Below, piece by piece: positions 5,041 through 53,217 of a stretch of DNA of 64,000 bases (position 1 is its first letter; each line of letters begins with the position of its first letter). The DNA is from Candidatus Methanoperedens sp. (GTDB lineage: Archaea > Halobacteriota > Methanosarcinia > Methanosarcinales > Methanoperedenaceae): the NCBI GenBank assembly GCA_027460525.1, contig JAPZAS010000004.1, positions 1 through 64,000 on the forward strand, read 5' to 3'. The notes below the pieces were generated by a model. The model was given only the letters and a program-made list of their open reading frames with translations. It did not search any database and was not told the DNA's origin. Both the position numbers and the translations under genes were made by a program.

Positions 5041-5388
5041 ATGAGGCTGAGCAAACAAACTTTAATTTTTGCAACAATTGTACCCCTGATATTTGGAGTA
5101 GTAATTCTCTGGAATTTCATGGATGCAATAAATATATTAAAGCCGCTTGATCAATCCACAGCGCTGGTATACAGCCAGGTGGTTGTTATCGGTATTTTTT
5201 CATTCTTGGCTCTTGCAGTGTACTGGTGCGTAATGATGTACCTGATATATCTGCTCCAGGAGAACTTGCAAATACTGGATGCAAATCTTGATAAGGCAGC
5301 AGATATCGGTGCCAAGCACCTTACAGAATCAAAGAACCTGCTGAATCAGGTTATAGCCATTCTGAAAAGATATGAATCAAGCCAGTAA
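5041..5388 (+). CDS. Two-TM membrane protein with C-terminal coiled coil, unknown function
   Basis: A 115-residue protein with two transmembrane helices (about residues 7-27 and 45-71) separated by a short loop, followed by a soluble, heptad-like helical tail from about residue 75. It resembles membrane-anchored scaffold proteins but I do not recognise a family. Expression signals are clear: TATA-like TTTTAAATAG at about 4993-5003 and GGAGGT ten bases before ATG 5041. It appears monocistronic and ends in a strong hairpin terminator. Confidence 0.65.
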   Translation: MRLSKQTLIFATIVPLIFGVVILWNFMDAINILKPLDQSTALVYSQVVVIGIFSFLALAVYWCVMMYLIYLLQENLQILDANLDKAADIGAKHLTESKNLLNQVIAILKRYESSQ

Positions 5389-47370: not shown

Positions 47371-47441
47371 TATTATTTATGTTTAAATGTTTCGATGCAG
47401 GCAATATTAATAAGCAATGCGAACCATTTCGCAGGAAACAT

Positions 47442-47526
47442 GCCGAGGTAGCCCAGCGGCCTAAGGCGCCGGTCTTGAAAACCGGTTGTGCTACGCACAG
47501 CGGGAGTTCAAATCTCCCCCTCGGCG
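47442..47526 (+). tRNA. tRNA-Ser (anticodon UGA)
   Basis: The acceptor stem GCCGAGG (47442-47448) pairs with CCTCGGC (47519-47525), discriminator G. The anticodon stem CCGGT/ACCGG holds loop CTTGAAA with anticodon TGA. The long variable arm (GTGCTACGCAC) is typical of class II tRNA-Ser. The T arm is GGGAG/CTCCC with TTCAAAT. CCA is not encoded. TATA-like AATATTAATAAG lies upstream. Confidence 0.95.
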
Positions 47527-47570
47527 TAGGATAATAGCTAAAGAATATAAAATCGAAGCTAAAGAAAAGT

Positions 47571-48716
47571 ATGGCACACAGGATATTTTTTTCAGTATGC
47601 GGCGAGGGTTACGGTCACTCAAGCAGGGACATGGTGATAGCAGAGTCACTTACCGGCGCAGGCAGCGAAGTCCTGATGGGAAGTTATGGATACGTGTTAG
47701 ATCGCTTAAAAAAGAGTTTCAATGCTGTTGAAATCAAAAACGAGTTCGAGATGGTGGGAAAGGAAGGAACTTTTGACCTTAAAGGCACAATATCCCGAAG
47801 TTCAAGCACGGCAATTCATTTTTCAAAAACTATTTCAGATGAGAAAAAAATCATGGAGGAATTTGGCGCAACATGCGTGGTATCGGACGGCAGAATCGCT
47901 TCGGTTTTAGCTGCTTTCAAACTTGGGCTGCCATGCATTATGATCTCCAATCAGACGAGCCTTGAGCCTTTTTTCAAAGACGAGACATTTTTTTTGCGCC
48001 TTGTTGGGAAACCTATGGAATTAATGATGAAAACTACAATGTCACTTACGGACGAGGTTTTAATCCCGGATTTCCCGCCTCCGCATACCGTGTGTATTAA
48101 TACCCTGAGCAAAAGCAGGCATATCATGAAAAAACAGCGCTTTATCGGACCGGTAGTATCTATGAATGGTGTAAGCCAACAGAATATCCCTGATATGCCA
48201 GAAAAGCCTTTTGTTGTAACAATTCTTGGCGGGCATTCATTCAGACTTCCCATTTTCAATGGAATCTTAAAGATCGCCGATAGATTCCCGGATTTCGATT
48301 TCCTTATATTTACAAAATTCAAGAGCGAAAATATACCGAAAAATGTCAAAGTAATGGGATTTGCGGAGGATATTTCTTCGTATATGCAAGGTGCCGAATT
48401 GATAGTCACACAGGCAGGACACAGTACTGCTATGGAGATATTAACACTCGGAAAACCAGCCCTTATTATTCCTGATAAAGGACAGATTGAACAGGAAAGC
48501 AATGCAGCACGGATGAAGGAACTCGGGATTTGCGAAACCCTTGATTATGCATCCCTTGATACCGAGTCTTTTTTTGAAAAAATAAATTTACTATTAAACG
48601 ATTCAGGATTCGGGGAAAGAGCAAAACAGTACGCTGAGATGGCAAAAAAGATGGAGGGATGCAAAAAAGCAGCAGATATAATTTCAGGGTTATCTGACCG
48701 GATACAATGCTATTAG
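47571..48716 (+). CDS. MurG-like (GT28) glycosyltransferase, MJ1255 family
   Basis: A 381-residue GT-B enzyme: start IFFSVCGEGYGHSSRDMVIA and nucleotide-sugar site VTQAGHSTAMEILTLGKP. It matches the MJ1255/VC2487 family of predicted glycosyltransferases; substrate unknown. It lies 45 bases after tRNA-Ser. The last 13 codons and the trailing T-run are duplicated 3.1 kb downstream, flanking the next three genes. Confidence 0.85.
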   Translation: MAHRIFFSVCGEGYGHSSRDMVIAESLTGAGSEVLMGSYGYVLDRLKKSFNAVEIKNEFEMVGKEGTFDLKGTISRSSSTAIHFSKTISDEKKIMEEFGATCVVSDGRIASVLAAFKLGLPCIMISNQTSLEPFFKDETFFLRLVGKPMELMMKTTMSLTDEVLIPDFPPPHTVCINTLSKSRHIMKKQRFIGPVVSMNGVSQQNIPDMPEKPFVVTILGGHSFRLPIFNGILKIADRFPDFDFLIFTKFKSENIPKNVKVMGFAEDISSYMQGAELIVTQAGHSTAMEILTLGKPALIIPDKGQIEQESNAARMKELGICETLDYASLDTESFFEKINLLLNDSGFGERAKQYAEMAKKMEGCKKAADIISGLSDRIQCY

Positions 48717-48727
48717 AATGTTTTTTT
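48678..48727 (+). repeat. Left copy of direct repeat bounding the glycan cassette
   Basis: The end of the MurG-like gene plus its T-rich tail (from ATAATTTCAGGG through the TAG stop to TTTTTTT). It matches 51802-51850 with two substitutions and one T length difference. As the gene's own 3' end, this copy is likely the original. Confidence 0.9.
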
Positions 48728-48767
48728 CAGGCGTGCATGAGTGTTTTTTGTCAAAGAACAGATTTTT

Positions 48768-49466
48768 TCATCTGTAATTTCGTTTCGAGTATGAGTATTT
48801 TGAAGCTTTGCCTCCATTGGTAACTATGTAAAACCATTCATAAAGGGATTTTATAGTGCCAAATTGCTGGAATCTTCGCATTGAGAATCCAACTCTCATG
48901 CGACTATCCAACATTACATGACCTAGTTTTTTCATTCTTTGTGCAATCTCAAGATCATCGCCTGCATCGATGCATCGATACATGCCGGACTTGATGAATG
49001 CCTTTTTATCAAAGGCGGTATTGCATCCCAGCGTATAATAAAAGGTGCGGGTATAGTATCCTATTCTGGAAAAGATATTTGCACTTGAGAGGAAGAACTT
49101 ATGTTTTATCTCTTGTTCTAATGGATAAACAATCCCATAAACTTGCGCAATATCATGTGTTTCAAAATCATTCTTTATTATCTCCAGCCAATCAAAAGGA
49201 ATAAAGCAATCTGCATCAGTAGTAGCTATGATATCTCCACTGGCAAGATTTACTCCATCATTCCTCGCCCCTCCCACCTTTTTGCTACTTTGAATAATGA
49301 CATCATCCGCATAAGCCCGTGCTAATTCACGGGTGCTGTCTGTTGAATTTCCATCAACTACAATGATTTCGTATTTATCCCGGTGAAGTGTCTGGTGGCA
49401 GAGTGATTGCAGACAGGTTGTAACGTTCGCTTCTTCATTATAGGTAGGGACAATTACTGATATCAT
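48768..49466 (-). CDS. Family 2 glycosyltransferase
   Basis: A 232-residue GT-A enzyme: MISVIVPTYNEEANVTTCL, VDGNSTDSTREL, metal-binding TTDADCFIP and late GDDLEIAQR. There is no transmembrane domain beyond a short hydrophobic end. Third gene of the cassette, four bases overlapping the GT4 gene. Probably adds a sugar to a lipid-linked or surface glycan. Confidence 0.85.
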   Translation of the reverse strand: MISVIVPTYNEEANVTTCLQSLCHQTLHRDKYEIIVVDGNSTDSTRELARAYADDVIIQSSKKVGGARNDGVNLASGDIIATTDADCFIPFDWLEIIKNDFETHDIAQVYGIVYPLEQEIKHKFFLSSANIFSRIGYYTRTFYYTLGCNTAFDKKAFIKSGMYRCIDAGDDLEIAQRMKKLGHVMLDSRMRVGFSMRRFQQFGTIKSLYEWFYIVTNGGKASKYSYSKRNYR

Positions 49467-50440
49467 GATTCGACCAGCTTCCTGTATAGATCATAATGCA
49501 TGTCAGCAATATTTTTGATGTCGTAATGCTCGGTAAAATCACGAGCTTTGGCTGAATTGCGCCGCAATGAAACGTCATCTGTGATGTGGGCTCCTGCCTC
49601 CTCAATATTACTGAAGAACAGCGCCGCATCTCCGAAAATCTCTCTAAATTCTGGTATTCCGCGAGCAACTACAGGTAGACCACAGGATAGCGCCTCCAAT
49701 ATTGCCAGTCCAAAGGTCTCTGCATACGAAGGCATGAAAAATACATCTGCTCCACTGTAAGCCTCTACGATGTCGGGAATAAACCCAGTAAATATGGCAT
49801 TCTCTCTACACAAGCTCTTTATCTTTTTTATATTGAGATAATCCTTTGACAGCGCCCCGTAAGGAAACCCGCCTACCCAGACCCAGCGTATCTCAGGATA
49901 CTTTCTTGAGAGTTCAATAAAATCGTATATACCCTTTCGCGGTGTTAGCTGAGCCACCGTGAGCACAACTTTATCGTTATCATCGATATGGAAATTGTCC
50001 CTGAAAATCTTCCTTTTACCTGGATCCTTTTTGAAATAATCTCTATCAATTCCATTCGGTATTAATGTAGCAGGCATATCTGGTACCATCTGTTCAATCT
50101 CCCGCTGGCATGAAAGCGATATGTTGATAATATGATCAAACTTTCGATATATAGAGGGATAATGGGAATTGATGGAACTGCAAAAAGCCAGATTGCCTTC
50201 ATTAAGGCGAGGTGTGGAATGCGCAGTCAATACCTTGATACCTTGGGAATATTTTCGATTCAAAAGTGATAGTGGCCCAAAAGTATGGTAATGTACCAGA
50301 TCAAAATCATGACCATTCGAGTTCCACGATATGTCCATCCCTGGCATTTGGGATAAATGACTATATAACGTCTTTGCTACTGTTGCACATCCAATGTACT
50401 TTAAAAAAAGCATATCCTCCGCGAAAATATTCACTCGCAT
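49463..50440 (-). CDS. Family 4 glycosyltransferase
   Basis: A 325-residue GT-B enzyme. The N-terminal acceptor domain has an early LVHYHTFGPLSLLN region, and the C-terminal domain holds VLTVAQLTPRKG and the E-x7-E donor motif in ETFGLAILEALSCGLPVVA. It shares one base with the stop of the FAD enzyme upstream, so the three cassette genes are co-translated. Confidence 0.87.
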   Translation of the reverse strand: MRVNIFAEDMLFLKYIGCATVAKTLYSHLSQMPGMDISWNSNGHDFDLVHYHTFGPLSLLNRKYSQGIKVLTAHSTPRLNEGNLAFCSSINSHYPSIYRKFDHIINISLSCQREIEQMVPDMPATLIPNGIDRDYFKKDPGKRKIFRDNFHIDDNDKVVLTVAQLTPRKGIYDFIELSRKYPEIRWVWVGGFPYGALSKDYLNIKKIKSLCRENAIFTGFIPDIVEAYSGADVFFMPSYAETFGLAILEALSCGLPVVARGIPEFREIFGDAALFFSNIEEAGAHITDDVSLRRNSAKARDFTEHYDIKNIADMHYDLYRKLVES

Positions 50441-51750
50441 CAGTTGTTCCTCACAAAATTTATTGCACTTCTAATACAGTCATCCATATTGAGATATTTA
50501 AACTCTGCAAAACGCCCAATGAGCCCGATACCCCTCCTTGCGCAGAAATCTTTCACTACGGTTACATTCTGAATATAATCGAGATCGTATATAACATAGG
50601 CATATTTTTGCCTATCCAAAGCAGCTAATACCACATCTTTTTTGCTAGTTATAATCTCCATGTTTTTAAGCGCTGAGATTACATGGGTAATTATATCATT
50701 GTCGGTCATGGCTGATACCTGATCACCTTCGTGATATGTAATCTCAACGAGGATTGACGAGTGTCCAAGCGGTGCAACCTCGGTACTGTAGTTGGAAGGG
50801 AATGAGACCCGGTTAAAGAGCCCTAAATCTTTCTCATGAACATACAGCCATGAAATGTCCGGAACTTTACCCCTTATGCCAAGGAAAACGCATGCAAGCG
50901 AGTTATACTTTAATTCATCACAACATCGCTGGACACTTTCAGGGACATTATCCAGGCATTTCAGGAGATCCTGTAATGGGATGGTTGATATGCAGCGATC
51001 GGCAGTAATTTTATTGACACCGTCACTGATAATAAACATTCCATCTTCTACTCTGATCGAAGAAACCGTGAATCCTGTTTGTATGTTTTTTTCAATGAGT
51101 AATGCGATTGCTTTGATCATGGCTTCTATTCCGCCTCTTTTAGGGTAATTAAAAATTGCTTGGTGGGTATATCCTTCTGTCTCAATCCCGACAGCAGACT
51201 TTATCACATCCTCAACCGGGGGTCTGGGAATGCGCCCTTCTACCCAATGCAACGACATAAATTCCGTGGGAAATTTCCAGATTTTCTCGTTATAAGGGAT
51301 CAGGTATAAATCAGCTATGCCTTTCCCGAAGGTGTATGTTATCCACTCACGAAAATTTTTAGGGGGTTGCAATTCACCTTTTTCAACTGCAATCAAAGTC
51401 TTGACAAATTCGTTGATACAGAAATAAAGATCCTCCTTTGGAAGCTGATATAGCCCATTTTCAAAAGGATATTTGATATATCGCCCCCTGTAGAAAATTT
51501 TTGTATTGCGTTTGTTCTGTTGGCTGTTCTCTCCCAGCACATCACGCATGAATTTGAGGACCTCTGCATCCCGGCTGAAAATGATGTGTGAGCCTCCTAT
51601 ATCAAAAGTGAACCCTGAATCGCACCTTGAACGGCATAACCCTCCATAATCAGATTCTCGCTCAAGTACTAAAACTTCATTACCTTTTTCATGAAGCAGT
51701 CGGGCTACCGTGACACCGGTAAGACCTCCACCTAGGATCGCGGTTTTCAC
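50440..51750 (-). CDS. FAD-dependent amine-oxidase/mutase-like enzyme
   Basis: A 436-residue flavoprotein: dinucleotide motif MKTAILGGGLTGVTVARLL, LERESDYGGLCRS, GGSHIIF, and C-terminal FAD contact GLIGRFAEFKYLNMDD. Homologues in glycan clusters are described as UDP-galactopyranose-mutase-like or protoporphyrinogen-oxidase-like. Its position ahead of two glycosyltransferases suggests sugar-nucleotide modification, but the reaction is unknown. First gene of the cassette. Confidence 0.82.
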   Translation of the reverse strand: MKTAILGGGLTGVTVARLLHEKGNEVLVLERESDYGGLCRSRCDSGFTFDIGGSHIIFSRDAEVLKFMRDVLGENSQQNKRNTKIFYRGRYIKYPFENGLYQLPKEDLYFCINEFVKTLIAVEKGELQPPKNFREWITYTFGKGIADLYLIPYNEKIWKFPTEFMSLHWVEGRIPRPPVEDVIKSAVGIETEGYTHQAIFNYPKRGGIEAMIKAIALLIEKNIQTGFTVSSIRVEDGMFIISDGVNKITADRCISTIPLQDLLKCLDNVPESVQRCCDELKYNSLACVFLGIRGKVPDISWLYVHEKDLGLFNRVSFPSNYSTEVAPLGHSSILVEITYHEGDQVSAMTDNDIITHVISALKNMEIITSKKDVVLAALDRQKYAYVIYDLDYIQNVTVVKDFCARRGIGLIGRFAEFKYLNMDDCIRSAINFVRNN

Positions 51751-51801
51751 ATCCTATAACTTGTTATCACTACTTATATAAGTTAATGTTTTCTATCGAC
51801 A

Positions 51802-51850
51802 ATAATTTCAGGGTTATCTGACCGGATACAATGTTATTAGAATCTTTTTT
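51802..51850 (+). repeat. Right copy of direct repeat bounding the glycan cassette
   Basis: A second copy of the MurG-like gene's 3' end and T-tail, here outside any gene, 3124 bp from the left copy. Two substitutions separate the copies. It may now serve as a terminator or simply mark the right border of an inserted segment. Confidence 0.9.
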
Positions 51851-51933
51851 CACCCTTGCAAATCTTGAATCTAAAAATATATATGTAGCAACTCCTATCT
51901 GGGACGATTAATAATGCTAAATGAGATGCAATA

Positions 51934-53217
51934 ATGGCAAAAAAGATTAAACTCTCCGAACTCGGAAGCCTGCTTGGCGGCGAAATCCAGTCCCTCGAAG
52001 GAGTGAAGATAGAAGGCGATGTGGAGATCGACCTTGGACAAATGGGGCTCAGCCCCCAGCTTGCATATGCGCTGGGGCATGAGACGGCGCAACTTGCCCT
52101 TCACTTAATGAATATCTCCAGGATTCTGGGTTATCCCATTGACCAGATGCTCGGCGCCGCCCCCCAGCCGAAGAAGCTCTCAAAATTAATCGAGTCAAAG
52201 TTCAGCGTCGGCAGAACCGAGGAATGGAAGACGCCGATACAGGAGGTGGTGCTGGGTGCTACTTCCTCTGACGGAGGCTCACGCAAGAGCACGGTAACAC
52301 TGGGAGGGGAGGGAGCGCTTCCGTATTATTTCGATTCCCCGATGCCCCACCGCAATTACATAACCATGGATGTTTTCGACATGCCCATAAACATGGCAAA
52401 GGCTGTCAAATCCAACTATGAGGACGTAATCAACAGCCCTGCAGAGTGGGCAAAAAAGGTGGTACGGGATTATGGGGCAGACATGGTCACGATCCATCTC
52501 ATAAGCACGGACCCCAATGTCAAGGACACCTCTCCGAAGGACGCGGCAAAAACAGTGGAAGATGTTCTCCAGGCTGTGGATGTTCCGATCGTGATCGGAG
52601 GCTCCGGCAATCCTGAAAAAGATCCTGCCGTACTTGAGAAAGCTGCAGAGGCAGCAGAAGGTGAACGCTGCCTGCTTGCCTCGGCAAGCCTGAACCTTGA
52701 CTATGCGCGAATAGCGGAAGCAGCCAAGAAATACAACCATGTCGTGCTTTCATGGACGCAGCTTGAGATAAATGCACAGAAAGAGCTGAACAGGAAATTA
52801 ATGAAGCAGTGCGGCGTGGCGCGCGAGAATATGCTGATGGACCCCACGACCGCAGCACTTGGATACGGCCTTGATTATGCTTACACCAATATGGAAAGGA
52901 TAAGGCTTGCAGGCTTGTCTGGCGATGCCGAGCTCAATTTCCCCATGTCGAGCGGCACCACCAACGCATGGGGAGCGCGCGAGGCATGGATGGTTTCATC
53001 GCCTCTAAAAGAAGACTCGGACTGGGGACCCCGTGAATACAGGGGACCGATATGGGAGATTGTCACAGGATTGACTTTATCGCTCGCAGGCAACGACCTT
53101 TTTATGATGATGCATCCAACGGCTGTGCAGGTTTTGAAAGAGATAACCCAGACGTTGTACGGCTTGAAGGAAACCGAATTAATAAATATCGATAACTGGA
53201 TATCGGCGGTGGTATAA
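51934..53217 (+). CDS. cdhD: Acetyl-CoA decarbonylase/synthase, corrinoid delta subunit
   Basis: The 427-residue small subunit of the corrinoid/iron-sulfur protein that passes methyl groups between tetrahydrosarcinapterin and the acetyl-CoA synthase centre. A TIM-barrel with [29 protein letters not shown] and [13 protein letters not shown] is typical. TATA-like AATATATATG lies at about 51872-51882. The cdhA, B and C genes that usually precede it are not adjacent; instead the glycan cassette lies upstream. Confidence 0.96.

Follow-up and report, generated by a model that had tools for sequence, protein, structure and literature searches.

How did three genes come to lie between a glycosyltransferase gene and cdhD in an uncultured methane-oxidising archaeon, bracketed by two copies of the 3' end of that same glycosyltransferase gene? 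The locus lies in the window, which here means the whole stretch of 64,000 nucleotides of Candidatus Methanoperedens DNA that was analysed. The window sits on a contig of 113 kb, and its genome (G000) comprises 2.44 Mb in 37 contigs and is 99.5% complete. The locus was compared across 31 genomes of the genus, G000 and 30 others, with one genome per species; the relatives of G000 include Ca. M. nitroreducens. The view that a mobile three-gene block was inserted behind the MurG-like gene, with duplication of the gene's end, is well supported. The insertion was most likely fairly recent and was most likely the work of ordinary recombination, not of a dedicated integrase.

The duplicated gene end and its surroundings

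The gene order is DsrEFH-like genes (minus strand), tRNA-Ser(tga), the MurG-like gene (plus), GT2-GT4-FAD (minus), and cdhD with cdhE (plus). The features of the interval are as follows.

47441..47527, plus strand: tRNA-Ser(tga), bounding the target interval on the left (ARAGORN)
47571..48716, plus strand: MurG-like GT-B glycosyltransferase gene, intact, 3' end duplicated (Pfam PF13528, PF04101)
48678..48726, plus strand: left copy of the 49-bp repeat, made up of the MurG-like gene's final 12 codons with its stop codon and T-tail
48768..49466, minus strand: GT2 family glycosyltransferase, cassette gene 3 (PF00535)
49463..50440, minus strand: GT4 family glycosyltransferase, cassette gene 2 (PF00534)
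50440..51750, minus strand: FAD enzyme, UDP-galactopyranose-mutase-like, cassette gene 1 (PF01593)
51751..51801, minus strand: cassette promoter and upstream region (flanks compared by eye)
51802..51850, plus strand: right copy of the 49-bp repeat, non-coding, differing from the left one at 2 positions
51868..51933, plus strand: core promoter and leader of cdhD, conserved in a comparison of its upstream regions from 20 genomes
51934..53217, plus strand: cdhD, right landmark (PF03599)

The initial annotation had described the end of the MurG-like gene, with its T-tail, as recurring 3124 bp away over about 49 bp with two changes. This was borne out, as 48678-48726 and 51802-51850 are identical at 47 of 49 positions. 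When the 2.5-kb flanks of the cassette were compared with each other by BLAST, this pair had an E value of 3e-18 and the next best pair one of 0.06. A 28-nt core of the repeat, searched for with up to three mismatches, occurs twice in the 2.44-Mb genome, both times at this locus, and is absent from all 30 other genomes of the genus. Since the core pattern is found only twice in 31 genomes, an att-like or dispersed repeat was rejected. A palindromic recombinase core was also rejected: exact matches to TATCTGACCGGATA are confined to the two repeat copies, and the one further match in the window has two mismatches. The tRNA-Ser gene was discarded as an integration site, with no second copy of its 3' end within the window. 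A longer repeat of about 60 nt, reaching past the T-tail across a one-base gap, was no better than shuffled sequence.

The edges of the right copy are sharp. It begins where the FAD-upstream-like sequence of the cassette ends (flanks compared by eye), and as far as that edge the region upstream of the cassette resembles what precedes FAD in other species. Both copies carry the T-tail of G000's own MurG-like gene. At its other end, the right copy stops 17 bp short of the conserved cdhD promoter, whose TATA region is conserved genus-wide and begins near 51868, to the right of the repeat. The cassette was said to separate cdhD from whatever preceded it. This holds for position but has little consequence: cdhD is probably unaffected because its own conserved promoter is intact, and the gene preceding it differs between members of the genus.

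Between the repeats lie the GT2, GT4 and FAD genes alone, on the minus strand and opposite to the plus-strand MurG-like gene and cdhD, with no recombinase among them; here the first description was accurate. Its name for the resident gene needs a correction. The product is a GT-B glycosyltransferase, for which the best model is TIGR00661 (134 bits, below the cut-off of 196), but it is not MurG itself, scoring 53 bits against the MurG model TIGR01133, for which the cut-off is 250.

The duplication is young. Over the 39 coding bases (12 codons and stop), the two copies differ from each other at one position and from the sister genome G028 at 11 and 12 positions, which places the copying (or a homogenisation) later than the divergence from G028. 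Between G028 and the window, the MurG-like proteins are 87% identical.

The cassette and the MurG-like gene across the genus

Thirteen other genomes of the genus carry FAD-GT4-GT2 as an intact operon with unchanged gene order, at several unrelated loci. A tree of the three concatenated cassette proteins places G005 and G009 with G010 (support 100/99). In the cdhDE tree, G010 groups with G025, G016 and G006, and G005/G009 group with G007, G015 and G024. The conflict between the trees and the several unrelated loci together show that the operon moves between species. The window cassette branches alone and is not specifically sister to the G005/G009 cassette; its donor is therefore unsampled. As carriers, viruses and plasmids were considered and rejected. 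Viral contigs hold only distant relatives of the FAD enzyme (31-43%), and identity to plasmid proteins is at most about 32% among the matches listed.

Another flanking repeat was found at the cassette of G010 alone (61 bp, 87%), where direct repeats at 417-477 and 5187-5247 of locus L128 flank the block f27-FAD-GT4-GT2-f21. Flanking repeats were nevertheless rejected as a general feature of the cassette, since the G010 repeat is a promoter-like element that is found singly in six other genomes. The gene order of the G010 block is circularly permuted relative to that in G003, G018, G021 and G022, as after tandem duplication or through a circular intermediate.

Is the arrangement seen in the window found in other species? 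The same order with both repeats in all relatives would have spoken against an insertion; none of the 30 has that order. The landmarks themselves are widespread: cdhD was found in 27 of the 31 genomes, and a DNA search with the DsrH-tRNA unit across the genus showed that tRNA-Ser(tga) is linked to DsrEFH in most relatives. In G010 (L218), DsrEFH and tRNA-Ser are followed by a broken EamA-type transporter gene (named from sequence) and cdhD within about 1 kb. In G020 (L085), other genes occupy the roughly 3 kb from tRNA-Ser to cdhD. The sister G028, whose assembly is 68% complete and lacks cdhD, has the same tRNA-Ser to MurG-like junction as the window and no cassette behind the gene. The comparison of relatives proposed in the initial annotation thus yielded other contents and a cassette-free sister, but among the 31 genomes, with one per species, none has the MurG-like gene followed directly by one repeat copy and then cdhD. 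The interval from tRNA-Ser to cdhD is probably older than the MurG-cassette block, with variable contents. Its content (window 47441-51934) differs among three species, in the manner of a small variable spot.

The MurG-like gene has orthologues in 14 other genomes of the genus. In six relatives (L062, L064, L065, L066, L071, L074), it lies between f11, encoding a Lon-C/S16 protein, and the gene of a PAP2 phosphatase. In G005 and G009 (L129, L130), the same slot holds GT2-GT4-FAD, oriented against f11 and PAP2. About 25 bases of the MurG-like 5' end remain between f11 and GT2, and about 140 bases of its decayed 3' end lie between FAD and PAP2; both matches beat all of 2000 shuffles. Because remnants of both gene ends flank it, the cassette has evidently replaced the MurG-like gene in place in these two species. 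In five further genomes (L236-L240), f11 and PAP2 are adjacent. The slot therefore occurs in three states in the genus, with the MurG-like gene, with FAD-GT4-GT2 and MurG-like remnants at both ends, or with nothing.

In G000, f11 lies at contig position 64298-66181 and is followed by neither the MurG-like gene nor PAP2, and an orthologous PAP2 was not found in this genome. The MurG-like gene adjoins tRNA-Ser in both the window and G028, so it has moved in this lineage if the position between f11 and PAP2 is the original one. The window and G005/G009 share the relative orientation of the cassette and MurG-like 3' sequence beside FAD; an intact MurG-like gene is present in the window only. In all three genomes the MurG-like 3' sequence is on the FAD side and the GT2 side has no shared flank. 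The events in the window and in G005/G009 were probably independent, since the copies in the window carry the gene's own T-tail and not the PAP2 leader. Joint movement of the MurG-like gene and the cassette out of the f11-PAP2 slot is disfavoured on the same ground, and one travelling unit was further rejected because G028 has the gene with no cassette behind it.

How the cassette arrived

We give a probability of about one half to the reading that the cassette was inserted by host recombination at the 3' end of the MurG-like gene. The MurG-like gene would first have moved beside tRNA-Ser, and the cassette would have arrived later. The incoming DNA would have carried a MurG-like 3' end beside its FAD gene, as in G005/G009. 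This end may have recombined with the resident one; a circle could have entered through a single crossover, or homology could have assisted the event on one side. The MurG-like gene would have come out intact, with its last 49 bp repeated on the FAD side. What we infer in this scheme is the crossover and the form in which the DNA came in.

Recombination at this site is favoured because the operon in G005/G009 is likewise oriented, with a MurG-like 3' remnant beside FAD. It is supported by the presence of the operon at several loci in 13 species, by the tree conflict and by the near identity of the copies (1/39), and also by the fact that the cassette upstream region stops at the right repeat and both copies have the gene's own T-tail. 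Against it, no donor is known that has a MurG-like 3' end beside a close relative of the window cassette, the remnants in G005/G009 are more decayed and are joined at other points, and the exact empty site was not found among the 31 genomes. A homology of 49 bp is also short for ordinary recombination.

The main alternative needs no incoming homology. A break at the MurG-like 3' end, staggered or resected, could have taken up a linear fragment with the operon by end joining, and fill-in would have left the 49 bp as a target-site-like duplication. The clean edges of the repeat on both sides would be accounted for, as would an insert with no MurG-like sequence beyond the 49 bp and the different joins in G005/G009. 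It leaves unexplained why the operon met the MurG-like gene twice, in equal orientation and with MurG-like 3' sequence beside FAD, and we regard it as possible but on the unlikely side. Recombination at the gene's 3' end can also be extended into a wider proposal, in which the MurG-like gene and FAD-GT4-GT2 are interchangeable modules and the 3' end is a repeated, integrase-free anchor where the operon lands and may replace the gene. This is suggested by the two apparently independent landings, both with equal orientation and MurG-like 3' sequence beside FAD, and is offered as a tentative and rather doubtful extension.

Could the cassette instead be the old resident, around which the MurG-like gene later moved or was partly duplicated? 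Two points speak for it: the MurG-like gene has changed place in this lineage, and the G023 cassette (L136, 7822-17367) is likewise a few kb away from the eRF1 - hisG cluster, matching the window in side and strand. The intervening genes of G023, however, are wholly unrelated to those of the window. In addition, G028 has the tRNA-Ser to MurG-like junction without the cassette, and the repeat is younger than the split from G028. An old resident is therefore improbable.

Site-specific integration at the MurG-like 3' end would call for an integrase that worked in trans or has since disappeared, and was judged slightly less probable still. Regeneration of a gene's 3' end by a direct repeat is its usual sign, such integration has been documented at the 3' ends of archaeal protein-coding genes (PMC6563490), and four tyrosine-recombinase genes are present in the genome, on other contigs. 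The insert has neither an integrase nor any other element gene, there is no integrase nearby, and the repeat core is no att site elsewhere in the 31 genomes. The 13 other operon copies are not at such a site, and in G005/G009 the joins differ and most of the MurG-like sequence was lost. Of the site-specific or homologous insertion that had first been suggested, insertion is upheld by the mobility of the operon and the absence of the order in relatives, and the analogy with integrases at tRNA genes is not supported. An assembly chimera at the short repeat is very unlikely: many assembly k-mers are longer than 49 bp, which would allow one, but two mismatches distinguish the copies, completeness of the genome is 99.5%, the contig spans 113 kb, and the FAD-repeat junction would still require its own reads.

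Parallels and gene content

The locus is a well-resolved new case of an already known kind of event. The nearest published parallels appear to be type VI secretion (T6SS) modules for the event and integrative elements for the form of the scar. In Vibrio cholerae, homology-facilitated illegitimate recombination has been proposed for the displacement of T6SS effector-immunity modules, which leaves orphan 3' regions of rhs genes (PMC5361080). As in the window, a module arrives at a resident gene, 3'-end sequence is left on its far side and no integrase takes part. In the T6SS case, the upstream side of the module holds the anchor, and the module displaces the resident effector (PMC5361080). In contrast, the resident gene is intact in the window, the gene in G005/G009 has given way to the cassette with a remnant left at either side, and no effector-immunity pair is involved. 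Integrative elements, including archaeal examples, restore the 3' end of the tRNA or protein-coding gene that they enter (PMC6563490). They resemble the window in having the target 3' end at both ends of the insert, as direct repeats that restore the gene (PMC6563490). Unlike them, the window insert consists of three metabolic genes only, with no integrase, replication or virus-like genes, and other copies of its block are not at one att site. Aquatic prokaryotes have been described as having replacement flexible genomic islands that encode surface glycans (PMC4033161). The f11-PAP2 slot is similar in holding differing glycan genes in related genomes (MurG-like, FAD-GT4-GT2 or nothing), and it differs from such islands in being small, at one to three genes, and in that the cassette is also found at unrelated loci.

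The locus provides a base-resolved scar of an operon-sized gene exchange between uncultured methane-oxidising archaea. Two sister cases accompany it, in which a three-gene alternative took over the position of one glycosyltransferase gene. Together they offer a concrete handle on the turnover of surface-glycan genes in ANME-2d archaea without mobile-element machinery.

The best solved-structure match of the FAD enzyme is 4dsg (E 8e-45), among solved eukaryotic-type mutases. It scores 57 bits against the UDP-galactopyranose mutase model TIGR00031, below the curated cut-off of 304, and its orthologues in the genus are 73-80% identical. For GT4, the nearest models are the glycolipid glucosyltransferases NF053513 and NF049987, both below cut-off; GT2 falls nearest to a broad GT2 group, also below the curated cut-off. 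To judge from these matches, the cassette may produce a furanose-containing glycolipid or glycan. The GC3 of the cassette genes is 0.35-0.41 against 0.49 (sd 0.055) for the genes of the window, which is weak evidence of foreign base composition since the MurG-like gene also has a GC3 of 0.42.

Broken, shortened or replaced MurG-like genes occur only in genomes that carry the cassette (G011 at L074, G018 at L075, and G005 and G009 at L129/L130), and all eight cassette-free genomes have the gene intact; these numbers are small, and the G011 case may be a sequencing error. In G030 (L131, 6552-10095), PAP2 follows FAD-GT4-GT2 on one strand, in the opposite arrangement to that in G005/G009, which suggests that the cassette and the PAP2 phosphatase are functionally connected.
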